From assembly GCA_900472785.1 (NCBI GenBank), contig UCJH01000028.1, forward strand, positions 107,031-171,030: a stretch of DNA of 64,000 bases, read 5' to 3'. Both the position numbers and the translations under genes were made by a program. A model generated the notes under the pieces. That model was given only the letters and a program-made list of their open reading frames with translations, was not told the DNA's origin and searched no databases. The stretch comes from Hyphomicrobiales bacterium. Its GTDB lineage: Bacteria; Pseudomonadota; Alphaproteobacteria; Rhizobiales; Rhizobiaceae. Positions 38,001 to 60,800 of the stretch are shown here, piece by piece. Within the stretch, counting starts at the first letter, position 1, and each line of letters opens with the position of its first letter.

Positions 38001-38011
38001 GGAAGCTGTCC

Positions 38012-42349: not shown

Positions 42350-44136
42350 GTGCGGACATCATTCGTCTTCCAACGACAAGGCCTGCGCCGCACTGGGGCC
42401 CACAGTCGCTTCGCGGAGGTAGGCACCTGTTTCAACTTTGGGCTCCTGCGGAAGGGCAGGTTGTTCTCGTTCTCAATGGAATTGATATGGCGATGGCGAG
42501 AACGGAAGACGGCTGGCACCGCATCGAAGCGACAGCAAGTTTCGGCAGCACCTACGCTTTCACGCCCGAAGACGGCCGCGTTGTTGGCGATCCGGCCTCA
42601 AGACAACAGGCTGGCCCGCTTGACGGCCCGTCCATTCTGACCGATCCCGACAGTTACGCCTGGACAAATACTGCTTGGAAAGGTCGGCCGTGGGAGGACA
42701 CGGTCGTCTACGAGATTCATATCGGCACGTTCACACAACAGGGTACATTCCGTGCTGCTCTTCAGAAGTTGCAGCACCTTGCCCAGCTAGGCGTTACTGC
42801 CGTCGAGATCATGCCGCTTGCACATTTTCCCGGAAACCGTGGCTGGGGCTACGACGGCGTCCTCCAATTCGCGCCGCACGGGGCCTACGGTTCCCCCGAC
42901 GACTTCAAGGCGTTTATCGATGCCGCGCACGGGCTCGGTCTGATGGTGTTCCTCGACGTTGTCTACAATCACTTCGGTCCCGAAGGAAACTATCTCGGTC
43001 AGTACGCACCTGGGTTCTTCAGACAAGGTGCTTCGACGCCGTGGGGCGATGCGATCGCATACGAAAAGCCGGAAGTCCGCGCTTATTTTATCGAAAACGT
43101 GCTTTATTGGCTACGGGATTTCCGGCTGGATGGCCTCCGGTTTGATGCCATCGACCAGATTGAAGATGGCAGCAATGTCCATATTCTTGAGCAGATCGCC
43201 CGAACGGTTCGCAACGAAATCGGCGGCAGGCATGTTCACCTCATCACCGAAAATCCTGCAAACGGAACGGATTTAATGGTCGAGCAGCCCGGCGGTCGAT
43301 ATTTCAAGGCTGACTGGAACGACGACTTCCATCACGCGCTTCATGTCGCAGCGACGGGCGAGGGAGTCGGCTATTACGAGCCGTTTAAAGACGATCCTTG
43401 GGGCAAGTTGCGACACGCGTTGGCATACGGTTACCTGAAACCTGGCAAGCCGATTGTCGATGACGATCCGCCGCCCACCGAGTCCCTGCCGCCTACCGCA
43501 TTCATTCACTTTCTGCAAAACCATGATCAGGTTGGAAACCGTGCGCTTGGCGAAAGGTTGCACCACGGCATCGATCGCCATGTCTATCGGGCGCTAATGG
43601 AGATGTTGTTGCTTACGCCGCAAATCCCATTGCTCTTTATGGGCGACGACCACTTATCGAAGCGGCCCTTTCATTTCTTCGCGGACTATCAGGGAGACAT
43701 TGCTGAGGCAGTTCGGGGAAACCGCCCCAAAGAAGTGTCGAACTTTGGCGGGCTGCCAAAAGGTTTGACGGAAGCCGACATACTTGATCCGAACAATCTC
43801 AACACATTTTCGGCGAGCGCACTCGATTGGCGTGAGGCCGAAACCGAAGGTGGACGGGAATGGGCAGACCACATTCGGTATCTGATCACGCTGCGGCGGC
43901 AAAAGATCATACCGCTTCTAGCCGATGCACGCGGTTATTCTGGGCGGATCATCGACGCGCCAGAGCGTTGTGTCTATCTTGACTGGGAACTTGGCGAAAA
44001 GACCCTCCAGTTAAGAGCAAATTTCTCCGGCAATGATGTCCCATCGCCAAGTGTATCGGGTGACAGGATGTTTCCGGAAAATGACACCGATGCCGCTCAT
44101 CTTGGCAATGCCAAGGTTCAAATTTTTATTTATTGA
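42346..44136 (+). CDS. treZ: Malto-oligosyltrehalose trehalohydrolase
   Basis: The 596-residue GH13 enzyme releases trehalose from maltooligosyl-trehalose, the second step of the TreY/TreZ route. An N-terminal CBM48-like domain (about 20-105; HLFQLWAPAEGQVVLVLNG) precedes the barrel: VVYEIHIGTFTQQGTF, VFLDVVYNHFGPEGNY, the nucleophile Asp in LDGLRFDAIDQI, acid Glu in HLITENPANG and the diagnostic LQNHDQVGNRALGERL. Normal length. No treY or treX is in the window; the SDR gene upstream overlaps it. It may need a TreY elsewhere or act as a stress function. Confidence 0.92.
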   Translation: MSADIIRLPTTRPAPHWGPQSLRGGRHLFQLWAPAEGQVVLVLNGIDMAMARTEDGWHRIEATASFGSTYAFTPEDGRVVGDPASRQQAGPLDGPSILTDPDSYAWTNTAWKGRPWEDTVVYEIHIGTFTQQGTFRAALQKLQHLAQLGVTAVEIMPLAHFPGNRGWGYDGVLQFAPHGAYGSPDDFKAFIDAAHGLGLMVFLDVVYNHFGPEGNYLGQYAPGFFRQGASTPWGDAIAYEKPEVRAYFIENVLYWLRDFRLDGLRFDAIDQIEDGSNVHILEQIARTVRNEIGGRHVHLITENPANGTDLMVEQPGGRYFKADWNDDFHHALHVAATGEGVGYYEPFKDDPWGKLRHALAYGYLKPGKPIVDDDPPPTESLPPTAFIHFLQNHDQVGNRALGERLHHGIDRHVYRALMEMLLLTPQIPLLFMGDDHLSKRPFHFFADYQGDIAEAVRGNRPKEVSNFGGLPKGLTEADILDPNNLNTFSASALDWREAETEGGREWADHIRYLITLRRQKIIPLLADARGYSGRIIDAPERCVYLDWELGEKTLQLRANFSGNDVPSPSVSGDRMFPENDTDAAHLGNAKVQIFIY

Positions 44137-44425
44137 AGTCGGAATGTGTCATTCGCGAGATTTCCGCCAGAAGTTCATCTGCCGACAGGATCGGATCAGA
44201 CGGAGGTGCTTCCATCTCAGGAGCAAGGTGAGTTTTTCGCTTCGCTCTGCGCCGCTCTTGGCGAACGGCCTGATACAGCCGCCGCATTTCCGGCATTTCG
44301 AGCTCGCCGTGTATCCACCGTTCGGCCAGTAACATGAAGTCGGCGTCGTTATGGATCGGGTGGCCCGCGGCGGCTTCGCTGATGGTCAGCCGTTGGATTG
44401 TCGCTCTGCGACTGTCGATAGTCAT
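44126..44425 (-). CDS. Small unknown protein
   Basis: A 99-residue protein overlapping the end of treZ by 11 bp on the opposite strand. It is basic and helical (DADFMLLAERWIHGELEMPE, YQAVRQERRRAKRKTH) and slightly resembles VbhA-type antitoxin helices, but not enough to call. ATG 44425 is the first start. Composition is like that of the genome. Confidence 0.45.
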   Translation of the reverse strand: MTIDSRRATIQRLTISEAAAGHPIHNDADFMLLAERWIHGELEMPEMRRLYQAVRQERRRAKRKTHLAPEMEAPPSDPILSADELLAEISRMTHSDFNK

Positions 44426-44450
44426 TGTACCCTCGATGCTCCCAGCAAAA

Positions 44451-44468
44451 GGCCCGCCGAAGCGGGCC
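44451..44468 (-). terminator. Hairpin after DUF892 gene, copy 1
   Basis: GGCCCGC, CGAA, GCGGGCC is a strong stable tetraloop stem 28 bp after the DUF892 stop. On the minus strand TTTTGCTGG follows, a short T run. Confidence 0.72.
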
Positions 44469-44495
44469 TCGCGCTGTCACTTTGCATGAAATATA

Positions 44496-44999
44496 TCAAG
44501 CAACCTTCTTCTTACCTGCCTTCGGGTTCGCGGACGCCTCACCGAGTTGGGTGAGTAGTGCGTCGGTGGCGATTTCCTCCTGTAGGTTGGCGTCGAGCAA
44601 TGCTACGGCTTCTGTGTAGCCAAGCTGTTCGGCCCACGACTTCAGCGTGCCATAGCGGGCGATCTCGTAGTGCTCGACAGCCTGTGCCGATGAGATCAGC
44701 CCAGCGTCGAGCGCGACCGAGCCCTTGTACTCTTCCATAATCTCTTCGCCTTCGGCAATGATGCCTTGAATGGCTTCACATGTCTTACCGCGTGCGGCCT
44801 TGCCGACGATTTCGAACACTTGCTGCAGGCGTTCGATTTGACCTTCGGTTTCATCCTTGTGCTTCAAAAACGCTGCCTTACCGTCTGGCGATTGGGCAGC
44901 GCGGGCCATCTTTGGCAGGGCTCTCAATATCTGCTTTTCGGCGAAGTAAATGTCCTTGAGGGTGTCGATGAACAGATCGTCGAGGGTCTTCTCAGCCAT
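44496..44999 (-). CDS. DUF892 ferritin-like stress protein (YciE family), copy 1
   Basis: A 167-residue ferritin-like helical bundle: DDLFIDTLKDIYFAEKQILR, then HKDETEGQIERLQQVF and AVEHYEIARYGTLKSWAEQ, with Glu and His residues that would bind a di-iron centre. YciE-type proteins are induced by osmotic and stationary stress. ATG 44999 begins MAEKTLDDL; the frame to 45044 has no homology. A second copy lies at 56783 on the opposite strand, about 82% alike in protein. It is convergent with the treZ region. Confidence 0.9.
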   Translation of the reverse strand: MAEKTLDDLFIDTLKDIYFAEKQILRALPKMARAAQSPDGKAAFLKHKDETEGQIERLQQVFEIVGKAARGKTCEAIQGIIAEGEEIMEEYKGSVALDAGLISSAQAVEHYEIARYGTLKSWAEQLGYTEAVALLDANLQEEIATDALLTQLGEASANPKAGKKKVA

Positions 45000-45265
45000 T
45001 GTGGTTCTCCTATTGGCGGGGTGGATTGGAATTGCGCGACTCAACCCCGTTTGCGAAAGATTGTTCCTCCCGGGAACTGTCAGGCTTGCACTTCGGTGCA
45101 GGTGTCGGAGAAAGACGTATGAGAGCGTCTGGAATTGGAGGTACTGTGCATCGATATGCAGCGGATATTCATTGAAGAGTCCTGTGGCATGGTGACTGGA
45201 TGAACGCGGTTCTTCCGTATCACGAGCCCCGTAACTTACGCACCGCCGCAGCTCCTGAATTCACT

Positions 45266-46249
45266 TCATCCATGATTACGGCTTGAATGCCACTGCCAGG
45301 CAGAACGAATGATATCGTGAAGATTATATTTGGGCTGCCAGCCTAAGATGCTCAATGCCAGTTCGCTATTTGCAACAAGAGACGTGGAGTCTCCGTAACG
45401 TCGCTCCGCATGCTCGATCGGGAAAGGTTTGCCCGAAACAGTGGAGATGGCGGAGACTAGTTCCCTGACAGTGGTTCCTGTTCCGGTGCCGAGGTTGAGC
45501 TGAGTGCTTTTTCCGCCGGATAGCAGATAGTCCACTGCCCGCACATGTGCATCCGCAAGGTCGAGAACATGAACATAGTCGCGCACGCAGGTTCCGTCAC
45601 GCGTCTCGTAGTCGTTGCCGAACAGCGTAAAACCAGTTCGACGTCCGAGCGCTGCGTCGATTGCAAGGGGAATGGCATGCGTTTCGGGCGAATGCCATTC
45701 ACCGATATGCCCCGCGAGATCGGCACCCGCCGCATTGAAATATCTAAGAATGACCGAGCGTAAGCCTTTGTAGCTGTCATAATCCTGCAGCACTTGTTCA
45801 ACGATCCATTTGGTTCGTCCATACGGGTTAATCGGTCGTTGTTCGTGGGTTTCATCCATCGGCGACTGTTTAGGCAAGCCGTACGTTGCGCAAGTGGAGG
45901 AGAACACAAATGCGTCGATGCCTGCCGAAAGAACTGCAGCCAGGAGCGTCAGCGTACCGATCACATTGTTGTCGTAGAATAACGCAGGATCCTTGACCGA
46001 TTCACCGACCTCTATCATTGCAGCAAAATGCAAAATGGCGTCCGGCTTGTAAGTAGCGATGACCGCATCAAGACGCTCTCGATCGCGAATGTCGCCTTTT
46101 TCTAAAGGTCCCCATCTCACAAACTCGGAATGGCCGTTGGACAAATTGTCAAACACGACGGGTTTGTAACCGCGGTTCGCCAAGGTCAAACAGGTGTGGG
46201 AACCGATGTAACCGGCACCACCGACAACGAGCACTGTCTTATCCTGCAT
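45266..46249 (-). CDS. galE: UDP-glucose 4-epimerase
   Basis: The 327-residue enzyme interconverts UDP-glucose and UDP-galactose. It is an extended SDR: NAD motif VVGGAGYIGSHTC, DNLSNGH, the catalytic Ser-x-Ala in STCATYG with Tyr and Lys in YGRTKWIVEQ, and FNAAGAD with GTCVRDYVHVLDLADAH. ATG 46249 starts MQDKTVLVVGG. It is divergent from the glycan biosynthesis operon (209 bp apart) and supplies its UDP-galactose substrate for the mutase domain of the second gene. Confidence 0.93.
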   Translation of the reverse strand: MQDKTVLVVGGAGYIGSHTCLTLANRGYKPVVFDNLSNGHSEFVRWGPLEKGDIRDRERLDAVIATYKPDAILHFAAMIEVGESVKDPALFYDNNVIGTLTLLAAVLSAGIDAFVFSSTCATYGLPKQSPMDETHEQRPINPYGRTKWIVEQVLQDYDSYKGLRSVILRYFNAAGADLAGHIGEWHSPETHAIPLAIDAALGRRTGFTLFGNDYETRDGTCVRDYVHVLDLADAHVRAVDYLLSGGKSTQLNLGTGTGTTVRELVSAISTVSGKPFPIEHAERRYGDSTSLVANSELALSILGWQPKYNLHDIIRSAWQWHSSRNHG

Positions 46250-46458
46250 GACGTCAACTAGACTTGACGTTGGTGAAGCACGAATCGACTGACTGCCGAG
46301 ACGGCGTCTGCCAGGGCGCCGCTCTCTCACATTTATCGTAACGCATTATCACCAAAACTCCACCGATCACAAATTTAGCCGAGGATGGATCAAATCGCAC
46401 GGCAACGAGTTCTGACCGACAACTAGCGAGGTGAATAATTGTTCATTCGAATTCTTTC

Positions 46459-47616
46459 ATGAGCCAGCCGGTGAAAACAAAGCGGATCGTCGTCATTAGT
46501 GATTTCCAGGATGGCGGCAGATTTCCGGCGCCTGTCGCAGACGTCCAGGAATTTCTTGCTCAGTGGTCAAAGCAGCCAAGCGGGCTCCCGCTTCGACCTC
46601 CAGAACATAGAGATTGTGTCGTCGAAGGGGGATATCTCGATCGACTTCCCTTGGCGTTGGTCAAGGCGGGGATAGTCGACGTTGCCGAAGTCTGGACACA
46701 TTGGCGTGGCGATCAACCACCAAAGCTCGATGTAAGTGGCGCGCCGTTTATCTTTCGGCGTTCGTTCCAGATGAATGGTCCTGAAGCGCCAATTGCCTCG
46801 AATGATATGTTAGCCCACATTGTGGCATTCGGTGCGCCTGAAATATTGTGCGTTTGGGGACTCGGTGTTTCCAACGAAATTATGGAAGCCTGCAAAAGCA
46901 GCTTCAAGATTTATAATTCCATCGACGCGCCAGCGCTGCGCGTTCCGCCGGAAATAAGCAAACATTTTGATCTTGTGATCACCGGCGCTGAATGGCAGTC
47001 GCAGGAGGTAACCCATCGGCACCCTACCATGAAGACTGCAATTCTGCCCATCGGTCCGGAATTCGCGTCGGACTCTATGTTTTTTCCGATTGCTGGTCCG
47101 AAAATCTACGACATCGTCTATGTTGCCGCAGCGCAAGCCTACAAGCGCCATGACATTCTCTTCGACGCAATGGCCAAGTTGCCGCTCAGCATTCGTGCAT
47201 TGTGTGTGTTCGGCTACGGGGAGTTGAGCGAGGATCTACGCAGCCGCGCCCGCGATCTTGACATCGAAGTTCAATTCGTGGGGCCGCCTGGAGTTCCGTA
47301 TACCGAAGTCAACAAGCTGATGAATCAAGCCAAAATCGGTGTCGTGTGTGGAGTGGATGATGGAGCACCAGCTATCCTCACGGAATACATGCTTGCCGGC
47401 CTTCCCGTTCTTGCCAACGAAGCACTCTGCTGCGGGCTGCAATATATCACGCCGCAAACGGGACGCACGTCGCCGGCTGATACTTTTCACGAGGCTATCA
47501 TCGAGATGCTTGCGACACGTTCGACTTATTCTCCAAGGCAAACCGTGCTGGACAATTGGACCTGGGCTCATTCGGTGCGCAAGCTGCAGGCGTTGATAGG
47601 GAGTGACGCGCGCTAA
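46459..47616 (+). CDS. Glycosyltransferase (GT4-like)
   Basis: A 385-residue protein with two Rossmann-like halves. The C-terminal half has the nucleotide-sugar pattern DIVYVAAAQAYKRHDILFDA, VQFVGPPGVPYTEVNKLMN and DDGAPAILTEYMLAGLPVLA, close to the E-x7-E of GT4 enzymes. The N-terminal acceptor half is divergent. It is the first gene of the glycan operon, 71 bp before the GT-mutase fusion. Sugar and acceptor cannot be told. Confidence 0.8.
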   Translation: MSQPVKTKRIVVISDFQDGGRFPAPVADVQEFLAQWSKQPSGLPLRPPEHRDCVVEGGYLDRLPLALVKAGIVDVAEVWTHWRGDQPPKLDVSGAPFIFRRSFQMNGPEAPIASNDMLAHIVAFGAPEILCVWGLGVSNEIMEACKSSFKIYNSIDAPALRVPPEISKHFDLVITGAEWQSQEVTHRHPTMKTAILPIGPEFASDSMFFPIAGPKIYDIVYVAAAQAYKRHDILFDAMAKLPLSIRALCVFGYGELSEDLRSRARDLDIEVQFVGPPGVPYTEVNKLMNQAKIGVVCGVDDGAPAILTEYMLAGLPVLANEALCCGLQYITPQTGRTSPADTFHEAIIEMLATRSTYSPRQTVLDNWTWAHSVRKLQALIGSDAR

Positions 47617-47687
47617 AATGTTCAACTCGAAGCGGAACAAAGCAAGAGACTTGTAGTTTGCGTTCGTCTCTCAAGCGCGGATGTTCA

Positions 47688-50030
47688 ATGAATCTTTCCA
47701 GTTCTTTTCCCGTAGCGTCACATACAGTACCTGTTCGTCACGCCCCATTGATCTGTTTTTCCCATTTGCGCTGGGATTTTGTGTTGCAGCGGCCGCAGCA
47801 CCTGATGGAGCGTTTTTCCGGGGAGCGGCAGGTTTTTTTCTTCGAAGAGTTCATCCCGACCGACCATCATCTTGCCTATATGGAAATCCATCCGTTTGAA
47901 GGAACGACGGTTAAATCCATACGTCCTCGAATTCCGCATTGGTGGAGCGAAGAGGACAGGGAGCGGGCGCTCGGCAAACTGCTCGACGAGCTCCTGACGC
48001 TTCATGGCGTCATGAAACCGATTCTCTGGTTCTACACCCCGCTCATGTACAGTTTTGCCCGCCATGTAGATGCGTCTGCCGTGATCTATGACTGCATGGA
48101 CGAGTTGGCAAATTTCAAATTCGCGCCGGCCGGACTGAAGGAAACGGAGGCTGCCCTTATCGCGCGGGCGGATGTGGTCTTCACGGGTGGTCAGAGTCTC
48201 TATGAAGCCAAGCGCCATATGCACGATAACATCCATCCGTTTCCATCGAGCGTCGATGTCGGCCATTTTCATGCCGCCCGAACGAACCATAACGAGCCAT
48301 TGGATCAACGATCGATAAAGGGAGTGAAACTCGGGTACTATGGCGTGATCGACGAGCGTCTTGATCTCGAACTTATCGCTCAGGTTGCTCAGGCTCGACC
48401 CGATCTTTCCTTCGTCTTCATCGGCCCCGTTGCCAAGATTGCGCCAGAAGCCTTGCCGCGCGCTGCCAATATTCATTATCTCGGCCGGAAGAGTTATGAC
48501 GAGCTACCCGGTTATCTTTCGGGATGGGATGTAGCCCTGATGCCGTTTGCGTTGAACGAAGCAACGAAATTCATCAGCCCAACCAAAACGCCGGAATATC
48601 TTGCGGCCGGTCGACCTGTCGTCAGCACGGCGATCACCGATGTCGTACGTCATTACGGCGATATTAACGGCGTGTTTGTCGCTGTAGATGCCGGTCGGTT
48701 CGCTGCGGCATGTGACGAGGCGCTCGCTCTCAGCCGCAGCGCCGACAATTGGCTGATGCGCGTTGACGCCATGCTTGCCGGATCATCTTGGGATCAGACA
48801 TTCTTGACAATGAAGACCTTGGTCAATGAGGCCATTGAACGCCGAGCCGGACTGCAACTGCCCAGGATGCGGCAGCCGGAGAAGAGGAGATTCACCTCCT
48901 CATCGCGATACGATTATCTTATCGTCGGTGCCGGATTTGCCGGCTCGGTTCTAGCTGAAAGGCTGGCATCCGAAGGCGGGAAGCGGGTGCTTCTCTGCGA
49001 TAGGAGAGCCCATGTTGGTGGCAATGCCTATGATTTTCACAATGAAGACGGCATCCTCGTCCATAAATATGGCCCTCATATTTTCCACACCAACAGCGAA
49101 GAAGTTTTTCGTTACCTGTCACGGTTTACTGCCTGGAGGCCGTACGAGCATCGGGTGCTGGCGCAGGTCGGCGATCTCCGGCTGCCTGTTCCCATCAATA
49201 GGACGACGCTAAACGCCCTCTACCGACTCGAGCTGAAGGATGAGGCAGAAGCGGCTTCGTTTCTGGCGAGCCGTGCCGAGGCGTGTGAATCGATCAGGAC
49301 TTCGAAGGATGTGGTCATTTCGCAGGTCGGGAGCGACTTATATCGCACCTTCTTCGAGGGCTATACCCGCAAACAATGGGGGCTTGATCCTTCCGAGCTT
49401 GATAAGTCTGTGACAGCGCGCGTGCCGACCCGTACGAACACCGACGACCGTTATTTTCTAGACGCGTATCAGGCGATGCCGCTGCACGGCTATACCGAAA
49501 TGTTCGAGAAAATGCTGGATCATGACAACATCACTGTCAGGACGTCGACAGAATATGTCGAGCTCCGTGGTCTCGCCGACCACACGATCTTTACAGGGCC
49601 GATTGACGAGTATTTCGATTATCGTTTCGGCCGGTTGCCCTATCGTAGCCTGACGTTCCAGCATGAGACCCATAATGCACGACGCGCGCTTCCGGTCGGC
49701 GTCGTCAACTATCCATCCGAAGATGTACCCTATACCCGCGTCACCGAATATAAGCACCTCACAGGACAGGTTCATCCCAAGACCGCGCTCTGTTACGAGT
49801 TCGCCAGCGGCAGCGGCGATCCGTATTACCCGATCCCCCGCCCTGAAAATCAGGCGCTTTATAAACAGTATGAAGCGTTGGCCAGAGAACGTTCGGACGT
49901 GACATTTGTCGGGCGCCTTGGAACCTACAAATATTACAATATGGATCAGGTCGTTGGCCAAGCCTTGGCGACCTATCGAAGGATGGCGAAAGCGGTTCCG
50001 GCTGATAGTATGGCCGCCGGCGCGCAATGA
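47688..50030 (+). CDS. Glycosyltransferase fused to UDP-galactopyranose mutase
   Basis: A 780-residue two-domain protein. Residues about 20-395 are a GT-B glycosyltransferase (FSHLRWDFVLQRPQHLMERF, CMDELANFKFAPAG, LGYYGVIDERLDLELI, PTKTPEYLAAGRPVVSTAI). Residues about 405-775 are UDP-galactopyranose mutase: FAD motif YLIVGAGFAGSVLAERLA, GGNAYDFHNEDGILVHKYGP, FFEGYTRKQWGLDPSELD and GTYKYYNMDQVVGQAL. The mutase makes UDP-galactofuranose, which the fused transferase may use directly. A TTG at 47658 is less likely than ATG 47688. Its end overlaps the next gene by 4 bp. Confidence 0.9.
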   Translation: MNLSSSFPVASHTVPVRHAPLICFSHLRWDFVLQRPQHLMERFSGERQVFFFEEFIPTDHHLAYMEIHPFEGTTVKSIRPRIPHWWSEEDRERALGKLLDELLTLHGVMKPILWFYTPLMYSFARHVDASAVIYDCMDELANFKFAPAGLKETEAALIARADVVFTGGQSLYEAKRHMHDNIHPFPSSVDVGHFHAARTNHNEPLDQRSIKGVKLGYYGVIDERLDLELIAQVAQARPDLSFVFIGPVAKIAPEALPRAANIHYLGRKSYDELPGYLSGWDVALMPFALNEATKFISPTKTPEYLAAGRPVVSTAITDVVRHYGDINGVFVAVDAGRFAAACDEALALSRSADNWLMRVDAMLAGSSWDQTFLTMKTLVNEAIERRAGLQLPRMRQPEKRRFTSSSRYDYLIVGAGFAGSVLAERLASEGGKRVLLCDRRAHVGGNAYDFHNEDGILVHKYGPHIFHTNSEEVFRYLSRFTAWRPYEHRVLAQVGDLRLPVPINRTTLNALYRLELKDEAEAASFLASRAEACESIRTSKDVVISQVGSDLYRTFFEGYTRKQWGLDPSELDKSVTARVPTRTNTDDRYFLDAYQAMPLHGYTEMFEKMLDHDNITVRTSTEYVELRGLADHTIFTGPIDEYFDYRFGRLPYRSLTFQHETHNARRALPVGVVNYPSEDVPYTRVTEYKHLTGQVHPKTALCYEFASGSGDPYYPIPRPENQALYKQYEALARERSDVTFVGRLGTYKYYNMDQVVGQALATYRRMAKAVPADSMAAGAQ

Positions 50031-53000
50031 ACAAGCGACCGCGTATCGTCTTGGCGACCGACAGCCTCGACCCATCCGGTATGGGCGAGCACATGTTGAC
50101 ACTCGGCTGCGCGCTTCAACCACAATTCGATGTCACGCTTGCCGCGATCGACAAGATCGAGGTGTCTCTCCTGGAGCGTGCTGCATGCGGTGGGCTTGCA
50201 GTGAAGGCCATCGATAGCGATGAAACGTTCGAACTCTGGCTGAAGACGGCAAACGTTGCCTTGCTGCACGTTCATGCCGGTATCGGCTGGGAGGGGCACG
50301 GCCTCGCGCGCGCCGGAACCGCCAATGGCATTCCAGTCATTCGTACCGAGCATCTCCCGTATTTGCTAACCGAGATCGACCAACAAGCGCTTTATGCGAA
50401 GGAAAGCCGGGAACTCGCGCACCACATCGTCGTTTCGGAAGCATCACGGCGGAGTTTTGAGGACAACGGCGTCGATGGCAGACGTATCACCGTCGTTCGA
50501 AATGGCATTCTTCCCTTAAAAGCGGTCGATAGGCGCCCGGTTGACACCGCCGGAAACGAGCCTGACTGCAGAAAAGTATTGATCACTGTGGCCCGCTTTT
50601 CTCAGCAAAAAGAGCACGCGACCCTGGTCAACGCCATGCCTGCCGTATTGCGCAAGTATCCCTCGGCCATTCTGCGTCTTGTTGGTAAAGGCGAGGAGTT
50701 GGCAAATGTTCGGGGGTTGGTCGACAAACTTTCGCTTGGTCGGCATGTGGAATTTCTAGGGCACCGGACCGATATTGCCGAGTTGATGGCGGACGCCGAT
50801 TTATTCGTTCTGCCGTCGCGTTTCGAGGGTTTGCCGCTTGCGGTGCTGGAGGCAATGTCGCTGGGCCTGCCGGTGGTCGCCACCCGGATTGGCGGGACCG
50901 TCGAAGCTTTGGGCTCGGATCATCCGTTTTTTTGCGAGGTTGGCAATCCGTCCACACTGGCAGACACAATAATTCATGCTCTCGGCGACAGGGGCCGAGC
51001 GAAGGCTGCCGGACAAGCCAGTCGAACGCGGTTTCAAGCTGAATTTTCAGCGCAGCGCATGGTCGATCAAACGGCTGATGTGTATCGCCGCTTTCTTCCT
51101 CGACGGACAGAAGACAAACAAGGACATTTTTACATGAATAAGACACGCATTGGCTTTATCGGTGTCGGAGGTATTGCGCACCGGCATCTCGACATCCTGG
51201 CCGGGTTCGAGGACGTGAGCCTTGTTGCTTTTGCCGATCCCGATTTCAGTCGTGCACAGCAGGCGGCGTCACATTTTGGTGCGCGCGCGTTCGACAACCA
51301 TGTTGCAATGCTTAACGACGAGGCCTTGGACGCCGTCTATATCTGCATCCCACCATTTGCTCACGGAGCAGCAGAACGGGAGTTGATTGCGCGGGGCATA
51401 CCGTTCTTCGTCGAAAAGCCGATCACGCTCGATATCGGTTTGGCTGAAGAACTTGCCACTGCTATCGAGGCCGCAAAGTTGATCACCGCCGTGGGTTATC
51501 ATTGGCGTTATCTCGATACGGTCGAGGAAGCGCGGCGGTTGCTGGCCGACAATCCTGCCCAACTGCTTTCAGGCTATTGGTTGGACCAGACGCCGCCGCC
51601 GCAATGGTGGTGGAAGAACGATCGCTCGGGCGGGCAGATCGTGGAGCAAACGACCCATATCATCGATCTAGCGCGATATCTCATCGGCGAGGTTGAAGAG
51701 GTTTATGGCCGTGTCGGCTTCCGGGATCGGGCGGAATTTCCCGGCCTTGACGTTCCGGCGGCGACCACCGCCAGCCTTACCTTTAAATCGGGCGTGATTG
51801 CCAACATCGCGTCCACTTGCCTTCTCGGCTGGAACCACAAGGTGGGGCTCAATATCTTTGCCGACCGGCTCGCGATCGAACTCACCGACCACGACATCAT
51901 GGTTGACGTGGGTGCCGGCCGACCTGTGCGCCATGCCGAGGGAGATCCCGTTTGGCGTGAAGATCGTGATTTTATAGATGCGGTGCGCGGCGGAGAAAAT
52001 CATATTCGCTGCGCCTATGGGGACGCATTGGCGACGCACAGGCTGGCGCTGGCGGTTGTGTCCTCTGCGCGCAGCGGCGAACCGGTCAGGATTGAACTCC
52101 CGGTTGTCCACCGCAATCCGATAGCACCGCTGCTGCATCAGCCACGGTACGATCCGCCGCAAAGATTGCCGCCGGGCCACCGCAAGGTCCGCTCTCTGGG
52201 TATTGAAGGGCCAGGGAAAGCCTATGTCCTGGAATACGAGGAGGGTCCGCCCGCCCATGGCCAGATTCGGCTGGACACGCTTTACACCGGCTTTTCCGCC
52301 GGTACCGAACTGACGTTCATGAAGAATACCAACCCATACTTCCACTCTCGCTTTGACGGAGGGCGTGGCGTTTTCCTCGAAAACGAGCCGGATCTGCGTT
52401 ATCCGGTCCCGTTCCTTGGCTATATGGAAGTCGCGCGGATTTCGGAATCGAGGGCACATGGATTTGCTGAGGGCGCGACCGTCGCAACGACATTTGCCCA
52501 CAAGACGGGTCATACCGCCGACCCATATCACGACGTTCTGATCCCTTTTCCGGACGATCTCGACCCCATACTTGGCATTTTTGTCGCGCAGATGGGGCCG
52601 ATCGCCGCCAATGGTATTCTCCATGCAGACGCGGATGCGCTCGGAACGAAAATTCCCGCTCTGGGAGCCGGGATCGCTGGCCGGCGAGTCGTCGTGTTCG
52701 GGGCAGGGACGGTCGGATTGATGACAGCTCTGTTTGCCCAGAGGGCTGGCGCATCGTCTGTCGTCGTCGCCGATCCTTCGGAATTTCGGCGCAACAAAGC
52801 AGAAGCCCTTGGCTTGACCGCAATGGGTGAGGACGACGTCTGGCAGCATGCGAAAGCGCGCTGGCACAATGGCGGACAGGATCGCGGCGCCGATGTCGTC
52901 TTTCAGACGCGGGCGCACGCGCGAAGCTTGCATATTGCCTTGAAGACGCTGCGCCCGCAGGGGACGGTTGTCGATCTCGCTTTCTACCAGGGCGGGGCGG

Positions 53001-53269
53001 ATGCCTTGCGGCTGGGTGAGGAGTTTCATCACAATGGGCTCAATCTGCGCTGTGCGCAGATCAACCGCGTGCCACGTGGCTTGGCGACACTATGGGACAG
53101 GCGCCGCCTTGCCGAAGAAACGATCAGTCTCCTGAAAACCCATGGCGCGCTTATCCGCGAGCATATGATCACGCATATCGTCCCGTTCGACGACGGGCCG
53201 GCATTCCTGGCCGATCTGGTCGAAAACCGGCCAGAATTTCTGCAGATCGTTTTCAAGGCTTCCGAATGA
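50027..53269 (+). CDS. Three-domain fusion: glycosyltransferase, Gfo/Idh/MocA dehydrogenase, zinc ADH-type dehydrogenase
   Basis: One open frame of 1080 residues. About 1-365: GT4 transferase (ATDSLDPSGMGEHMLTLGCA, VARFSQQKEHATLVNAMP, FVLPSRFEGLPLAVLEAMSL). About 370-700: Gfo/Idh/MocA sugar dehydrogenase (RIGFIGVGGIAHRHLDI, FADPDF, FVEKPITLDI, GYHWRYLDTVEEAR). About 720-1080: MDR-type dehydrogenase (YTGFSAGTELTF, VVVFGAGTVGLMTALFAQ, HITHIVPFDDGPA). An internal ATG at 51134 could start the dehydrogenases separately, but the frame is unbroken. The dehydrogenase pair suggests sugar epimerisation or ketosugar chemistry. It overlaps both neighbours by 4 bp. Confidence 0.88.
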   Translation: MNKRPRIVLATDSLDPSGMGEHMLTLGCALQPQFDVTLAAIDKIEVSLLERAACGGLAVKAIDSDETFELWLKTANVALLHVHAGIGWEGHGLARAGTANGIPVIRTEHLPYLLTEIDQQALYAKESRELAHHIVVSEASRRSFEDNGVDGRRITVVRNGILPLKAVDRRPVDTAGNEPDCRKVLITVARFSQQKEHATLVNAMPAVLRKYPSAILRLVGKGEELANVRGLVDKLSLGRHVEFLGHRTDIAELMADADLFVLPSRFEGLPLAVLEAMSLGLPVVATRIGGTVEALGSDHPFFCEVGNPSTLADTIIHALGDRGRAKAAGQASRTRFQAEFSAQRMVDQTADVYRRFLPRRTEDKQGHFYMNKTRIGFIGVGGIAHRHLDILAGFEDVSLVAFADPDFSRAQQAASHFGARAFDNHVAMLNDEALDAVYICIPPFAHGAAERELIARGIPFFVEKPITLDIGLAEELATAIEAAKLITAVGYHWRYLDTVEEARRLLADNPAQLLSGYWLDQTPPPQWWWKNDRSGGQIVEQTTHIIDLARYLIGEVEEVYGRVGFRDRAEFPGLDVPAATTASLTFKSGVIANIASTCLLGWNHKVGLNIFADRLAIELTDHDIMVDVGAGRPVRHAEGDPVWREDRDFIDAVRGGENHIRCAYGDALATHRLALAVVSSARSGEPVRIELPVVHRNPIAPLLHQPRYDPPQRLPPGHRKVRSLGIEGPGKAYVLEYEEGPPAHGQIRLDTLYTGFSAGTELTFMKNTNPYFHSRFDGGRGVFLENEPDLRYPVPFLGYMEVARISESRAHGFAEGATVATTFAHKTGHTADPYHDVLIPFPDDLDPILGIFVAQMGPIAANGILHADADALGTKIPALGAGIAGRRVVVFGAGTVGLMTALFAQRAGASSVVVADPSEFRRNKAEALGLTAMGEDDVWQHAKARWHNGGQDRGADVVFQTRAHARSLHIALKTLRPQGTVVDLAFYQGGADALRLGEEFHHNGLNLRCAQINRVPRGLATLWDRRRLAEETISLLKTHGALIREHMITHIVPFDDGPAFLADLVENRPEFLQIVFKASE

Positions 53270-55551
53270 TTACCGATCAACCGCCCATCCGTATCCTGTT
53301 CGTTTTCGCTTGGCTGGTCGTCGGTGGTGAGGAAACGGAAGTTCGGCTGCTCGCCCGCAATCTGGACCCCGGCCGCTACCGGATCGACGTCGTGGTCTGC
53401 TTTCACAAGCCTGGCATGCCGGAACAGACGCATGAGCAATTGAAGGACTTGGGCGTGGATGTCGATACCACGCCGTATCAATTGTCTTTTGAAGACACGG
53501 TCAGCTATCTGGCCAGCAAGGTCTCGGGATATGATGTCGTGATCTCTTGCCAGAATGTTGCGGATATCTATCCGGCATTGGAGCGTATGCATTGGCGTCC
53601 GCCGCTGATCGAGCATGGTGGACTGGTGTCGGAGGCACTGGCTGGTCCGAAGCATTTCACCAGTCGTTACGTCGGGGTTTGCCGATCCATCAGGGACGCC
53701 GCCGCGTCGAAGATGCCCGGACGTGAATCGAGTGCGGTTGAGATTCCGTCAATGGTTGATCTCGCAGAGTTCAATCCGAGTCAGCGCCCGATCATGCGAC
53801 TGAAACTTGGCGCGAGCGAGAGTACGATTCTGATCGGCTGGGTTGGGCGCCTGGATCCGAAGAAGAATGTCGATGACTTTATCGAAGCGGCAGCCATCGT
53901 TCATGCGCAGAACATCTCCGCCCGCTTTCTCGTAATTGGTGGACCGGACGCCTTCCTTCCGGACTACGCGTCGCAGCTGGAAGCATTGGCAAAAGCCCGT
54001 GGGCTTGCTGGGGTGCTGGAGTTTCTCGGCGATCGAAAGGATATTCCGTCTTTGCTGTCGGCGCTCGACATCTTCGTCTGGCTGTCCAAAGGAGAAGGGA
54101 TGCCACACGTGATTGCGGAAGCGGGTGCTGCGGGCCTGCCAGTGATCGCAACTCCAGACAACGGCGCAACACAGCAGATCGAGGACGGCGTAACTGGGTT
54201 GTTTGTGCCCTATAGCGACCCAATCGCTGTCGCCGAGGCAATAACCAAGCTCATTCACGCGAATGCGTTGCGCCAAAAACTTGGCCTAGGGCTGCGTTCG
54301 ACCGTGGAAAGCCGCTACAGCGCAGCTGCAGTAACTCCGCAATGGGCAAACCTGATCCAAGATGTCATGTCGGAGCGATCGCCGGCGGTACCGACCGGCT
54401 TGTTCCGATCCTTTCTGCAAGGCGGTTTTGAATGCTCCACCCATCGGTTGCGTCCGCGCCTCGGGGAAACGATTGGGAGACGCCTCGATGTTATTGCTGC
54501 CACCGGGCATGATATAAACGCCGCTAGGGATTATGATCAGCTTGCTGGGTATTCGCTTCGCACGGTGCGCGATGGCTTGCGGTGGCACCTGATCGAGACT
54601 GGTGCCGGGAGTTATGACTGGTCGAGTTTTTTGCCTATGCTAAGGGCTGCAAATGAGACCCGAACCCAGGTGATTTGGGATCTTCTACACTATGGCTGGC
54701 CCGACGATATCGACATATGGTCTCCCGATTTCGTCAATCGTTTTGCATGTTTTGCCGGTGCCGCAGCGAGAGTTGTGCGTAGCGAAAGCGACGCCGTGCC
54801 GTTCTATTCGCCCGTCAACGAAATTTCGTTCTTATCTTGGGGTGGCGGGGATGCCGGCTATCTCAACCCCTTTACCAATGGGCGCGGTTTCGAACTAAAA
54901 GTTCAGCTTGCCCGTGCCTCCATCGCGGCGATGGATGCGGTACTTGCGGTCGATCCAAGAGCACGCTTCGTCCACTGCGACCCGGTCATCAACGTCATCA
55001 CCGATCCTTCCCGACTATGGCAAAGGCGTGAAGCCGAGGGCCACCGTCAATCGCAGTTTCAAGGATGGGACCTGCTTGCCGGACGTCTGTGGCCACAGAT
55101 TGGCGGCGCTGATAAGTATCTCGATATAGTAGGCGTCAACTATTATCACAACAATCAATGGGTTCACGGCGGCCCCCCAATTGACAGAGGCCATTGCCTT
55201 TACAAGCCGCTTCGAAATATCCTCAGCGAGACTTTCGCTCGATACGGCAAACCGCTCTTTGTCGCGGAGACAGGTATAGAGGCCGAAAAAAGACCCGAGT
55301 GGATCATGTACGTCTACAAAGAGGTAAAGGCGGCGATTGCTGCCGGCGTTCCTATCGAAGGAATATGCCTATACCCCATCGTCAATCACCTGGGATGGGA
55401 TGATGATCGGCCGTGCGAAAACGGTTTGTTGTCGTCGGTTTTGGTAGGCTCTGAGCGCGTCGCGCACAAACCCTTGCAAAAAGCACTTCTCTCGATCTGG
55501 AACGATATCAGCGAGCGAGTTGATACGGATGCAAAATTGCAAATGCCCTAG
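53266..55551 (+). CDS. Glycosyltransferase fused to a clan GH-A glycoside hydrolase
   Basis: The 761-residue protein has a GT4 transferase at about 1-385 (FVFAWLVVGGEETEVRLLAR, WVGRLDPKKNVDDFIEAA, FVWLSKGEGMPHVIAEAGAA) and a TIM-barrel hydrolase at about 410-750 (RLRPRLGETIGRRLDVIAA, DGLRWHLIETGAGSYDWSSF, SPVNEISFLSWGG with the acid Glu, and VAETGIEAEKR with the nucleophile Glu), close to GH1-like enzymes. It may trim or transfer sugars of the glycan it helps to make. ATG 53266 overlaps the upstream stop (ATGA). The open frame to 53092 lies inside the upstream gene. Confidence 0.88.
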   Translation: MITDQPPIRILFVFAWLVVGGEETEVRLLARNLDPGRYRIDVVVCFHKPGMPEQTHEQLKDLGVDVDTTPYQLSFEDTVSYLASKVSGYDVVISCQNVADIYPALERMHWRPPLIEHGGLVSEALAGPKHFTSRYVGVCRSIRDAAASKMPGRESSAVEIPSMVDLAEFNPSQRPIMRLKLGASESTILIGWVGRLDPKKNVDDFIEAAAIVHAQNISARFLVIGGPDAFLPDYASQLEALAKARGLAGVLEFLGDRKDIPSLLSALDIFVWLSKGEGMPHVIAEAGAAGLPVIATPDNGATQQIEDGVTGLFVPYSDPIAVAEAITKLIHANALRQKLGLGLRSTVESRYSAAAVTPQWANLIQDVMSERSPAVPTGLFRSFLQGGFECSTHRLRPRLGETIGRRLDVIAATGHDINAARDYDQLAGYSLRTVRDGLRWHLIETGAGSYDWSSFLPMLRAANETRTQVIWDLLHYGWPDDIDIWSPDFVNRFACFAGAAARVVRSESDAVPFYSPVNEISFLSWGGGDAGYLNPFTNGRGFELKVQLARASIAAMDAVLAVDPRARFVHCDPVINVITDPSRLWQRREAEGHRQSQFQGWDLLAGRLWPQIGGADKYLDIVGVNYYHNNQWVHGGPPIDRGHCLYKPLRNILSETFARYGKPLFVAETGIEAEKRPEWIMYVYKEVKAAIAAGVPIEGICLYPIVNHLGWDDDRPCENGLLSSVLVGSERVAHKPLQKALLSIWNDISERVDTDAKLQMP

Positions 55552-56230: not shown

Positions 56231-56377
56231 GGGTCTTCCTCCGTTAATAGACTTCAACTTGAGACGGGACCGATGGTTCCTTCACCAATATGCGAATCCA
56301 TGAAGCATTGAAGCGATAGCGCCAAAGGCTGCGGAACTTGTTGCAAGCGGTTCGGTTGATCCGCTTTGGAGAAACCC

Positions 56378-56782
56378 ATGCCGATATTTCATTTCAAATC
56401 AGGTGATGAAACCGTCGCCAGCGCGACTCCCCTTTTGTTTGAGACTCAAGAGGATGCGATAAACCAAACACGTCTTGCCCTCTGCGAGATGGCACCTGAT
56501 CAGCTTTCGGAGAACGCGGTGGATCTGATTACAATCGAGATTCAGGATGAAGCGAAGCACCCTCTATTCGAGGGTGCGCCTGATTATGGAAGTTATTCCG
56601 AAAACCATCCCATAAGCGGCTTATCGAGCCACCCAGCCCTTCAAAGTGTTTCGCTTTCGATGAGACGTTGGATGCTGGTCAAATGGCGTGGGGCCGCAAA
56701 TTTTCTGCCAGTCCGGTATTATACGGAACCAAGGAACGGTTTTGAAGTTGTGGGGGTCCATTCAACCTCGAAAGGAAAACTC
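56378..56782 (+). pseudogene. DUF6894-like gene that runs into the DUF892 gene without a stop
   Basis: ATG 56378 has GGAG 6 nt upstream and starts MPIFHFKSGDETVASATPLL, ETQEDAINQTRLALCEMAPD, which matches DUF6894. After about 90 residues (FEGAPDYGSYSENHP) homology ends, but the frame stays open through 45 more residues and the DUF892 ATG, giving a 302-residue fusion. The DUF892 gene keeps its own ribosome site, so the fusion may be accidental, caused by a lost stop codon. Confidence 0.55.
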
Positions 56783-57286
56783 ATGGCCGAAAAGACTTTG
56801 GACGACCTGTTTCTCGATACGCTCAAGGATATCTATTATGCGGAAAAGCAGATCCTGAAGGCGTTGCCGAAGATGGCACGTGCAGCCCAGTCTGAGCAAG
56901 GCAAGGCGGCTTTCCTTCAGCACCGCGACGAAACGGAAGGCCAGATCGAGCGTCTCCAGCAGGTGTTCGAACTGATTGGCAAGCCGGCCCGCGGCAAGAC
57001 CTGTGAGGCCATTCAGGGCATTCTCGCTGAAGGCGAGGAAATCATCGAAGACTATAAGGGTTCTGTTGCCCTCGATGCCGGCCTCATCTCCTCGGCACAG
57101 GCGGTCGAGCACTACGAAATCGCCCGTTACGGTACCTTGAAGGCCTGGGCCGAGCAGCTGGGTCACACCGATGCGATCGCCCTGATCGACGCAAACCTTC
57201 AGGAAGAGATTGCGACCGACGAGAAGCTGTCGGCATTGGGCGAAGGCTCTGCCAAAGCTAAGGGCAAGCTGAGAGCCACTAAGTAA
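56783..57286 (+). CDS. DUF892 ferritin-like stress protein (YciE family), copy 2
   Basis: A 167-residue protein that aligns over its full length with the copy at 44496-44999 (opposite strand), differing mostly in conservative changes and at the C terminus (AKAKGKLRATK). The helices DDLFLDTLKDIYYAEKQILK, HRDETEGQIERLQQVF and AVEHYEIARYGTLKAWAEQ keep the expected metal ligands. ATG 56783 has AAAGGAAAA upstream. It follows a DUF6894-like ORF in the same frame. Stress function by family. Confidence 0.92.
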   Translation: MAEKTLDDLFLDTLKDIYYAEKQILKALPKMARAAQSEQGKAAFLQHRDETEGQIERLQQVFELIGKPARGKTCEAIQGILAEGEEIIEDYKGSVALDAGLISSAQAVEHYEIARYGTLKAWAEQLGHTDAIALIDANLQEEIATDEKLSALGEGSAKAKGKLRATK

Positions 57287-57433
57287 TCCGTCGCGGTGGT
57301 TGGTCATCAAATAAGGCCATCACCGTGAAGACGATGATGGCCTTGTGTCCGTCCAACTTGCGCCTCCAAGGCCAGGTTTGCATCCTCAGGGATGCACCCG
57401 CATGCCAGCGTTGTTACAAAGAAAGATGCTGAA

Positions 57434-57835
57434 GTGAAAACATTTGGAATTGCCTATATTGCCACCCTCGTGTCGTTCCTGGCCATAGACGCAATTTGGC
57501 TCGGCGTCGTGGCTCGTAAATTTTACCAAGAGCAACTCGGCAATCTTATGCTTCCGTCACCCAACTTTGCGGTCGCTGCCGTTTTCTATTTGTTCTTTGC
57601 TACGGCAATCGTCGCGCTGGCTGTCCGTCCCGGGCTCGAGGCGGGATCGCTTTGGACAGCAGCCGGCTACGGCGCCGTGCTGGGTCTGGCAGCCTATGGA
57701 ACCTACGATATAACCAATCTCTCGACGCTGAAGAATTGGCCGGTTTCACTCAGCATCGTTGATATGATCTGGGGCGCTGTATTGACAGCGATTGCCAGCA
57801 TGAGCGGCTACGCTGTCGCGCGACATTTCGCATAG
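57434..57835 (+). CDS. DUF2177 membrane protein
   Basis: A 133-residue protein with four membrane helices (FGIAYIATLVSFLAIDAIWL, AVAAVFYLFFATAIVALAV, LWTAAGYGAVLGLAAYGTYD, MIWGAVLTAIASMSGYAV). It matches DUF2177 from the start MKTF-IAY-ATL. GTG 57434 is chosen for that reason; ATG 57392 adds 14 residues not seen in the family. The conserved TYDITNLSTLKNWP loop is typical. Function unknown. Confidence 0.8.
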   Translation: MKTFGIAYIATLVSFLAIDAIWLGVVARKFYQEQLGNLMLPSPNFAVAAVFYLFFATAIVALAVRPGLEAGSLWTAAGYGAVLGLAAYGTYDITNLSTLKNWPVSLSIVDMIWGAVLTAIASMSGYAVARHFA

Positions 57836-57887: not shown

Positions 57888-60800
57888 TTGCGCGTGTCCG
57901 AGTATTCAAGCTTCACAAGTCAGGCGTCATCGGACCCTGTCCGAATCTCAAGCGCGTTAACCGCCGCAAAACTGGTCGAGATCATGCATTCCGATCCACG
58001 TCCGCATACCTACGTTGCTTTGACGGGGGGAACGGCAGAGCGGATCGCAAGTGCAGCCAGATGTCTGGGCCCGGACATCGAGGTAATCCTACTGCCGCCG
58101 TGGGACTGTCTTCCCTACGATCGCGTCGCGCCGTCCAAACAGGCGATGGGTCAGCGTATGGATGCGCTCCGTGTCTGGCTGCAACAGGCGTCGAAGCCGA
58201 GGCTGCTCATCACCTCATTGGGAGCGGTGCTGCAGCCAACCCCACCTTTTCCTGTCGTGCGGGAAAGCGAGGTCACTCTCGAGGTCGGGCAGCCATTCGA
58301 TCGTGACGAATTCAGAAAATTCGCGCTTAGAACTGGTTATCTGGAGGAGGCACTCGCTGATGAGCCTGGCGAACTCGTGTTCCGCGAGGACGTCGTTGAC
58401 ATTTTTCCCGCCGGTAGCCCAGTCCCGATGCGCATCGTGCTCGACGGCGATAACAGGATCGAGGAGCTACGGTTTTACGACGCTGAGACTCAGCGAACCA
58501 CCAAAACGGTCGAGCAAATGACATTTGGGCCGGCTTCAGAGCTGATCCTTAGCAGCTTCTCAGACGCCGCCGATAGCCGTCCCGTATCTGTCGAAGAGCA
58601 ACTGCTGCAAGCATACGGCATGATGCCAACTCTGGTTGATGTCGTTGACGGCAGTCTGCTCTCTTTACAGGAGGGATGGGAAAGCAAACTCGACGAACTC
58701 ATTGCGACCATTCAGGACGCGACAGAAGCCCGTGTGCAATCCGAGTCGGGAGCGCGCCGAAAGCCAAGTCGTTTTTACCTTCACCGGGATCAGCTTCTTC
58801 GAGAAATCGCACCGTTTGACCGGTTTGACATCGATTACGCCGACGCTCGTCCACAAGGCTCGATCGAGGGGCGCAATCGTCGAAAGGCTCTGGTCACTTT
58901 TGTCGATCAGCAGAAAAAAGCGGGCCAAACCGTGGTACTCGCCGGCTGCGGTCGGTCGATGGAAAATCTGGTTGGCGCCTTGGCGCAAATATCAGATGTG
59001 ACGCCTGTTGTTGATTGGAAGGCATGCATTTCAGCGCCGGCGGGATCCGTGTTGACACTAAATTGTCGATTGGACCGAGGCTTTGCTATCGACCACATTC
59101 AGGTCGTAACGACTGCTCACGTTTTGGGTGAAGAGGCCGACGAGATCGATACCTCGTCATTCCTGAATGAGCCGCAAATTCAGCTTGGTGACGTCGTGGT
59201 TCACGAGGACCACGGGGTCGGGATCTTGCAGGGGCTCGAAACCCTTGATGTCGAGGGGATCCGTCAGGACGCGGCCCGGCTCGAATATCGCGATGGCGGC
59301 TCCGTCCTCGTGCCGATGGCCGAGTTCGGCAAGCTGTGGCGATATGGATCGTCCCCCGAAACCGTCACACTGGACCGACTGCACACCGAGGCCTGGGCCA
59401 AGCGTCGTTCTGCGATCAACAAGGACATTGAAAAAGTCGCTCGGCATCTAAAGCGGCTTGCTAAGGGTCGTCGCGAAGCCACAGCTGACGCGTTCGTTGC
59501 GCCACAAAAGGCGTATGCAGACTTCGTGCGGCGCTTTCCCTATTCGGAGACAGCCCATCAGTCATCGGCAGTTCGCGCGGTCTTGCAGGATTTAAGCTGT
59601 GGAAAGCCGATGAATCGTCTCGTCTGCGGCGATGTTGGATTCGGCAAGACCGAAATTGCCTTGAGGGCGGCGGCCGCAGTTGCTTTGTGTGGCGCGCAGG
59701 TGGTGGTTATAGCACCGACCACGGTTCTGGCCCGCCAGCATTATCTCACATTCGCGCGTCGGTTTGCCAACACGGATGTCAGAGTTGAGATGCTCTCGAG
59801 GATTGTCGATCGGAAGACGGCAACTGACGTCAAAGCGGGATTGGCGTCTGGCGAAGTCGGCATCGTCATCGCCACGCAGGCCGTGCTTGCAAAGGATGTT
59901 CGGTTTGCCCGGCTCGGCCTGCTGATTATCGATGAAGAGCACAAGTTCGGCGCGCGCGACAAACAGGCGCTGAGCTCGCTCTCGCCCACATTGCATATGC
60001 TGGCGATGTCAGCGACACCGATCCCCCGGACGTTGCAATCGGCGATGATCGGTATCCAGGATGTCAGCACCCTTGCGACGTCGCCGAGAAAACGTCGGCC
60101 GGTCAGAACCACGCTTGGACCATTCGATCGCGCTTCCATGCGTGTCGCGCTGCTGCGCGAGTTTCGCCGCGGCGGGCAGAGTTTCGTTGTTGTGCCGCAA
60201 ATTGAAGATATCGACGGCGTTCACGAAATGCTGACAGACCTCGTCCCCGAGCTATCGGTCCGCGTCGCGCACGGTAAAATGAAAGCTGCAGACCTGGACG
60301 AGGTCATGGTCCGATTTGGCGACGGGGATGGGGACGTTCTCCTGTCCACAAACATTATTGAAAGCGGGCTCGATATCCCGCGTGCAAACACCGTCTTCAT
60401 CTGGCGGGCCGATCGATTTGGCCTGGCGCAGTTGCACCAGCTGCGGGGCAGGGTCGGGCGTGGTCAGATCCAAGGCTTAGCTATGCTTTTGGCCGACGAT
60501 AAGATCTCGGGTGAAACGCGTAGTCGCCTGTTGACCATGGAAGCCCACGATCGCTTGGGCGCTGGCTTTGCATTAAGCATGCAGGATCTCGATATGCGTG
60601 GCGCCGGCGATATTGCCGGAGACGATCAGGCGGGGCACATGAAACTGCTCGGCGTCAGTCTTTATCAAAAACTCTTGGAACGCGCGGTACTGGCGAGCGG
60701 CAAACAGGGATTTCGTGAGCAACAGGATGTTGCAATCAATATTGGCATCACTCAATCGGTACCCGAACACTACGTGTCGGACGGTACGGTGCGACTCAAC

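Follow-up and report, generated by a model that had tools for sequence, protein, structure and literature searches.

An EcfG-type promoter site and a cassette of fused glycosyltransferases predicted to use UDP-galactofuranose in alphaproteobacteria

The locus and its fused genes

The subject of this work is a group of four glycosyltransferase genes in a 64,000-nucleotide stretch of the genome of a Hyphomicrobiales bacterium (assembly GCA_900472785.1, contig UCJH01000028.1, positions 107,031 to 171,030), hereafter the window, to which all coordinates refer. Between positions 46459 and 55551 of its plus strand, the window holds a gene for a glycosyltransferase (GT) of the GT4 type (GTa), followed by three fused genes in which a GT4 domain is joined to a UDP-galactopyranose mutase (UGM; gene GTb-UGM), to a Gfo/Idh/MocA dehydrogenase and a medium-chain dehydrogenase (MDR; gene GTc-Gfo-MDR), or to a GH1-like glycosidase domain (gene GTd-GH); we refer to these four genes as the cassette. 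This locus, reported in an original prediction drawn from the letters of the DNA, is real: the gene positions and both four-base ATGA overlaps of its last three genes (50027-50030 and 53266-53269) were found in the DNA, and the domain assignments hold, through family matches for the GT, UGM, Gfo and MDR domains and through a GH1-like fold for the hydrolase (Table 1).

Table 1. Features of the cassette and its immediate surroundings (window coordinates).
Feature	Position	Strand	Basis
galE, UDP-glucose 4-epimerase	45266..46249	-	TIGR01179 418.7 bits (cut-off 262.3)
Possible weak EcfG-like site, GGATC-N17-GTT (GGATC for GGAAC), upstream of GTa; uncertain	46387..46411	+	
GTa, GT4-type glycosyltransferase	46459..47616	+	PF00534 46.9 bits (cut-off 26.4)
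EcfG-type promoter site, GGAAC-N17-GTT	47634..47658	+	Same place in 43/55 alphaproteobacterial loci
GTb-UGM, TuaH-like GT4 fused to UDP-galactopyranose mutase	47688..50030	+	PF13692 43.2 bits; TIGR00031 364.3 bits
UGM domain	48909..49979	+	TIGR00031 across residues 418-774 of the listed frame (364.3 bits, cut-off 303.75); PF03275 256.7 bits (cut-off 26.3)
GTc-Gfo-MDR, GT4 fused to Gfo/Idh/MocA and medium-chain dehydrogenases	50027..53269	+	PF00534 117.3, PF01408 91.4, PF00107 47.6 bits; MDR fold
GTd-GH, GT4 fused to GH1-like glycosidase domain	53266..55551	+	PF00534 113.5 bits; glycosidase fold model
GH1-like domain	54391..55500	+	Conserved Glu codons 54820-54822 (N-E) and 55267-55269 (E-T-G)

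Matches to PF00534 or PF13692 exceed the Pfam cut-off in all four GT domains, and a sequence search of the PDB with GTb gave no match at E 0.01. The UGM domain exceeds its equivalog cut-off, and the interconversion of UDP-galactopyranose and UDP-galactofuranose (UDP-Galf) is its predicted activity. Two of the listed open reading frames (ORFs) of the cassette open further upstream than the genes in Table 1: that of GTb-UGM at a TTG codon (47658) which overlaps the promoter site, the ATG at 47688 being the likelier start, and that of GTd-GH at 53092 according to the ORF finder, with the ATGA overlap at 53266 present in the DNA. The third domain of GTc-Gfo-MDR has a medium-chain dehydrogenase fold (model pLDDT 76.5), and the structure matches of this model are to MDR proteins in general and indicate no substrate. 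None of the four proteins has a clear membrane span (best 19-residue hydropathy 1.17-1.65, with GTa borderline).

The C-terminal domain of GTd-GH has no Pfam match at E 0.1, Glyco_hydro_1 included; a distant homologue (locus L045) scores 30.0 with that family, above the cut-off of 22.6. The AlphaFold model of the domain is confident (pLDDT 91.4), and the 50 PDB matches listed for it by Foldseek are GH1-type glycosidases (best E 1.1e-16, TM 0.72). Two glutamates at GH1-like places, E144 (in N-E) and E293 (in E-T-G), are invariant in 25/25 aligned rows and in at least 37 of the 38 of a second set, from which domain translations holding a stop were left out, and we regard them as the putative catalytic residues. 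Such a domain within a biosynthetic fusion is a clear target for enzymology.

Promoter site, architecture and distribution

Directly before the likely ATG of GTb-UGM stands a site of the EcfG type. In the available part of PMC3892343, the motif of Rhizobium etli EcfG1 is given as GGAAC-N16-CGTT, and we scanned for GGAAC-N16/17-N-GTT. In a first test, the site was present in 26 of 29 Rhizobiales loci (near-copies included), compared with a mean of 0.3 and a maximum of 3 after shuffling. A wider test, in which loci with start regions more than 92% alike were merged and those with less than 60 nt upstream were omitted, found it in 43 of 55 alphaproteobacterial loci (window included), in 0 of 54 non-alphaproteobacterial loci and in 237 of 11000 random stretches (2%). 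All 43 sites have the 25-nt form and, since the spacer is not conserved (columns 11-18 carry at most 0.21 bits), the likeness of the core cannot be put down simply to relatedness. The site also occurs in L102 and L103 (from another GTDB family), L194, L192 and a metagenome-assembled genome of the Sphingomonadales (L025). Of the 24 loci in which GTa comes first, 10 have the exact GGAAC form no more than 200 nt upstream of it, and the weak GGATC form of the window recurs at similar places in L083, L003, L004, L087 and L088. Two NepR genes exceed the cut-off in the genome, the search within the NepR/PhyR/EcfG switch having covered NepR alone. Based on the site and its conservation, we infer that the cassette is under the control of the EcfG general stress response.

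The cassette also appears to lie in a neighbourhood of stress genes, since the window holds 15 EcfG-type sites where 3.76 are expected, including sites before an SDR-treZ pair and before both of its DUF892 genes. The stress-type genes (35594-45044 and 56366-57835) comprise two DUF892 genes, DUF4142, DUF6894, treZ, a PEBP-GSDH fusion and a DUF2177 membrane protein, and EcfG-type sites stand just before several genes of this neighbourhood (45067 and 39123 on the minus strand, 56333 and 41517 on the plus strand). A DUF892 gene is found in the cassette flank, whose length varies, of 15 of 47 alphaproteobacterial loci (e.g. L009, L010, L011, L017 and L019), and a TRCF/Mfd-like transcription-repair coupling factor-like protein of 1086 aa is encoded downstream of the cassette (57888-61148).

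The architecture of the cassette was compared across 47 alphaproteobacterial loci, which are those with useful flanks and not a random sample (L189, L190 and L193 were omitted as repeats of L016, L006 and L017) and which were classified irrespective of GTa. The three fused genes, already noted in the original prediction, occur together in 25 of them (window included), 20 of which also have GTa, and this architecture is beyond chance. In eight loci GTc, Gfo and MDR are separate genes, in three GTc-Gfo is fused and MDR separate, four hold GTc-Gfo-MDR and GTd-GH without UGM, and five hold just GTb-UGM and a separate glycosidase gene; of the remaining two, L192 has GTb, UGM, a GH1-RmlD fusion and galE, and L018 is truncated, its contig beginning inside GTa and ending inside GTd. 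The domains, which might have been separate genes in all relatives, thus exist in both fused and separate forms, and the order GTc, Gfo, MDR is identical in the fused and unfused loci. Further variants place GTa after GTd-GH (L014, L074, L134 and L137), split the GTd part across two frames (L004) or join GTa, GTb and UGM in a single ORF of 1223 aa (L141). On a quick UGM tree of 100 rows, the fused and separate states require four changes (shuffled mean 29.2), of which the starred branches force one; GTb-UGM fusions and splits have therefore been few, and we reject many separate inventions of the fusion. The inner branches of this tree are weak and it does not fix the direction, fusion or split. 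This ladder of fusions, together with the replacement of a fused UGM by an unlinked copy described below, offers natural experiments on why pathway enzymes fuse.

GTc-Gfo-MDR is found on 56 plasmid records, 55 of which match 80% or more of its length, with hosts in Sinorhizobium, Rhizobium, Ensifer, Agrobacterium, Pararhizobium and Aureimonas; these records do not include R. etli CFN42. In Sinorhizobium medicae WSM419 and S. meliloti BL225C, the genes of the cassette are plasmid-borne. The cassette is flanked by different genes in each of four annotated regions, none of which has galE: by a type II secretion cluster in one, and in the others by a nitrate transporter with a toxin-antitoxin pair, by small hypothetical genes with a transposase, or by DNA repair genes. 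Counting this genome, GTb is present in 38 of 394 genomes of the family, and GTb-UGM in 5 of 385 genomes of the class at E 1e-150. The cassette thus appears to be a portable unit that moves horizontally. The window itself may or may not lie on a plasmid: in the draft assembly (149 contigs), RepA genes above the cut-off are located on contigs C59, C85 and C93, and not on C111.

The divergent galE gene, which the original prediction had counted as part of the locus, is genuine (its listed ORF, reaching 46330, opens upstream of the likely Met), yet it is a neighbour and not a conserved part of the cassette, because it is close to the cassette in only 2 of the 47 loci, namely the window and L192, which is of a different sub-type (galE, like DUF892, was sought in flanks of unequal length), and because in the nearest relative (G012, GTb-UGM 89% identical) an 84% orthologue sits on another contig.

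The dependence of the cassette on UDP-Galf can be judged from the genomes in which its UGM is missing. Among the 38 family genomes with GTb, 27 have a GTb frame long enough for UGM and one (G561) has UGM adjacent; only one of these 28 (G709) has an unlinked second UGM. The other ten have a short GTb frame and no cassette UGM, and all ten carry a stand-alone UGM (41-45% identity) on another contig. A UGM was found in 9 of 42 control genomes, of which 15 were named as being without a GTb match and 27 were chosen as having no P0004 match listed; these controls are not perfectly clean, since a stop interrupts the UGM of G414, and in G451 a glycosidase gene lies near a UGM that is cassette-like (65%). 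By Fisher's test, the genomes with UGM-less cassettes differ from those with UGM cassettes (2e-8) and from the controls (6e-6), and the last two differ from each other at 0.04. In genus g371, the genome with a UGM-bearing cassette (G765) has no other UGM and the five UGM-less ones all have an unlinked UGM; in two genomes outside the 38 (G011 and G503), the cassette UGM is likewise missing and an unlinked one present. Because an unlinked UGM accompanies 10/10 UGM-less and 1/28 UGM-bearing cassettes, UDP-Galf seems to be required, in agreement with the UDP-Galf route originally proposed.

Predicted product and alternatives

With moderate confidence, we propose that the unit is a self-contained, horizontally moving general-stress cassette for a galactofuranose (Galf)-containing oligosaccharide, built on a host acceptor at the cytoplasmic face. 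Under stress, EcfG would direct the transcription of GTb-UGM, GTc-Gfo-MDR and GTd-GH, with GTa just upstream. The GalE of the host would supply UDP-galactose, UGM would convert it to UDP-Galf and, being fused to GTb, would pass it on for Galf transfer; that UGM makes UDP-Galf and that the GTb fused to it uses this donor is supported by the domain itself, by the fusion and by the complementarity of linked and unlinked UGM genes. As their fusion implies, the Gfo and MDR domains may oxidise, epimerise or reduce the sugar that GTc transfers, and GTd may add a further sugar to the product, which the GH1-like domain would trim or transglycosylate in the cytosol. The presence of Galf in the product, the order of the reactions and the acceptor are likewise part of the proposal.

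A short oligosaccharide on a host acceptor is favoured because the unit has at most four GTs and lacks a primer, a flippase and a polymerase. The absence of flippase and polymerase genes, already remarked in the original prediction, extends to the 18 window proteins scanned (a subset of the window ORFs, cassette included) and to the incomplete annotation of the regions of four relatives, none of which includes a priming GT, a flippase or ABC exporter, or a polymerase. The acceptor would already be made and exported by the host and is probably a lipid; the lipopolysaccharide core or a membrane glycolipid is likelier because the unit, which includes neither a carrier nor an exporter, is present in many hosts.

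The same features could also be read as those of a soluble product in the cytoplasm, an oligosaccharide or glycoside with Galf that would serve, like trehalose, as a compatible solute and whose turnover would be set by the glycosidase domain. The enzymes without a clear membrane span, the glycosidase domain fused into the pathway and the lack of an exporter seen alongside all agree with such a product, as do the nearby treZ gene (42346-44136) and the EcfG-type site at 41517 upstream of the SDR-treZ pair. Nevertheless, three or four GTs is a large number for a solute and GT4 enzymes commonly use lipid-linked acceptors, and for these reasons we consider a soluble product unlikely.

Similarly doubtful is that the cassette is an auxiliary set for an ordinary exported polysaccharide (O-antigen or exopolysaccharide), with flippase and polymerase encoded elsewhere in the genome. 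In its favour, UGM is a classic gene of O-antigen and capsule loci, and the stress control of other rhizobial glycans is known. Against this stand the varied genomes and plasmids that carry the cassette, and the four annotated regions, where no polysaccharide genes are annotated alongside in the PLSDB gene tables, which are incomplete.

Several observations weigh against the proposed oligosaccharide on a host acceptor or its stress control. Our results fit a lipid acceptor and a soluble product alike, and the presence of UGM shows the production of UDP-Galf without revealing its destination. The ten UGM-less genomes span three genera, so that the UGM association rests on few independent events. 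Five of the 25 three-fusion loci (L005, L006, L016, L091 and L092) lack GTa or hold only part of it; the contigs of L005 and L006 start a short way upstream. Additionally, 12 of the 55 alphaproteobacterial loci have no EcfG-type site at the expected place: in L141 (GTa and GTb fused) and L142 (GTa and GTb abutting) it lies instead upstream of GTa, their first gene; in L014 and L074 a site lies about 320 nt, and in L134 about 400 nt, upstream of GTb; in L136, L137, L140, L195 and L184 (genome of L196), the stretches scanned upstream of GTb or of the first gene hold no site; and the remaining two are L018, which has no DNA upstream of GTa, and L180. These exceptions, and the fact that related sequences are not independent, could be taken to mean that GGAAC-N17-GTT is here a remnant or a coincidence and that other promoters drive the cassette, which is very improbable given the near-fixed position of the site, its diverged spacer, its recurrence in L102, L103, L194, L192 and L025 and its restriction to the alphaproteobacterial loci.

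Relation to other loci and to known systems

A core of the cassette, consisting of the TuaH-like GT4, UGM and a GH1-like domain, extends to Cyanobacteria, Bacteroidota and Acidobacteria. Searches with GTb-UGM recovered 59 non-Rhizobiales loci, with homologous GT4 and UGM; 42 of them have a GH1-like ORF no more than 3 kb away and two have one at a greater distance, and the 15 without one in their flanks are 2 on very short contigs and 13 from Bacteroidota. This GH1-like family is homologous to the cassette glycosidase domain (hhalign probability 99.8%, E 5.5e-30), and in the one locus scanned (L045) it is fused to RmlD. In loci assigned to phyla by record titles, a single gene encodes GTb and UGM in 20 of 22 from Cyanobacteria, and the two are adjacent genes in 25 of 25 from Bacteroidota. 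These loci differ from the cassette in having no match to GTa, GTc, Gfo-MDR or GTd by the search used and, as stated above, no EcfG-type site. We tentatively raise the idea, which we hold to be rather improbable, that a class of stress glycans shared across phyla and not yet described is built around the GTb-UGM-GH1 trio, with a cytosolic transglycosylase of glycosidase fold acting on a Galf-containing product, and that alphaproteobacteria placed the trio under their general stress sigma factor and grew the fused assembly line; we found no published description of the group in the open-licence literature.

Three further observations concern this core. By clustering, 16 of the 25 loci from Bacteroidota have a GNAT-type acetyltransferase gene near GTb, on its upstream side (Pfam was checked for L055:9098-9619), and this enzyme perhaps acetylates the glycan. 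Within the GTDB family of the window, L192 (genome G561) has GTb, UGM, GH1-RmlD and galE in the cyanobacterial style, with EcfG-type sites before GTb. In G451 (C2:538614-542156), for which no match to GTb is listed, about 1.4 kb separates the UGM from a GH1-like gene on the other strand, and the pair is possibly a further variant of the cassette.

Each enzyme family of the cassette is already known, and we found no description of the gene set, its fusions or its stress promoter in the open-licence literature, in line with the original prediction that no such set of fusions had been described; the available parts of PMC12269835, PMC3892343, PMC6599016 and PMC3616915 hold no description of the cassette. 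Beyond that prediction, the present analysis adds the EcfG-type site and its conservation, the likely start of GTb-UGM downstream of it, the portability of the unit and its cross-phylum core. The best-scoring NCBIfam glycosyltransferase model for GTb is TuaH of teichuronic acid biosynthesis (92 bits), but the score is far under the equivalog cut-off of 550. The cassette glycosidase domain shares its fold and two conserved glutamates at GH1-like places with the GH1 beta-glycosidases, but it is only 13-19% identical to those listed from the PDB, has no Pfam GH1 match and is fused behind a GT4 domain.

With the EcfG/PhyR regulon of R. etli (PMC3892343), the cassette shares a promoter of the GGAAC-N16-CGTT type, and a table of EcfG-dependent transcripts of Sphingomonas melonis Fr1 includes glycosyltransferase and glycosidase genes (PMC6599016), which may offer a precedent for stress-controlled glycans and are not shown to be the cassette; the available parts of both papers contain no UGM cassette. 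Our results suggest that bacteria of soil and plants make a stress-induced glycan that has not been described. Galactofuranose is otherwise familiar chiefly from fungi, the walls of mycobacteria and the O-antigens of bacteria; the cassette would tie this sugar to the alphaproteobacterial general stress response, and a specific glycan, inducible by stress, is thereby predicted for Sinorhizobium, Rhizobium and their relatives. In the pamABCDE locus of Kingella kingae, as described in the available part of PMC12269835, and in other Galf galactan and O-antigen loci with glf, UGM similarly feeds UDP-Galf to dedicated glycosyltransferases within one cluster; in K. kingae, UGM stands alone as PamB and Galf is transferred by enzymes of the GT111 and GT2 types, whereas in the cassette the GT4 domains are fused to UGM, to the two dehydrogenases and to the glycosidase domain.

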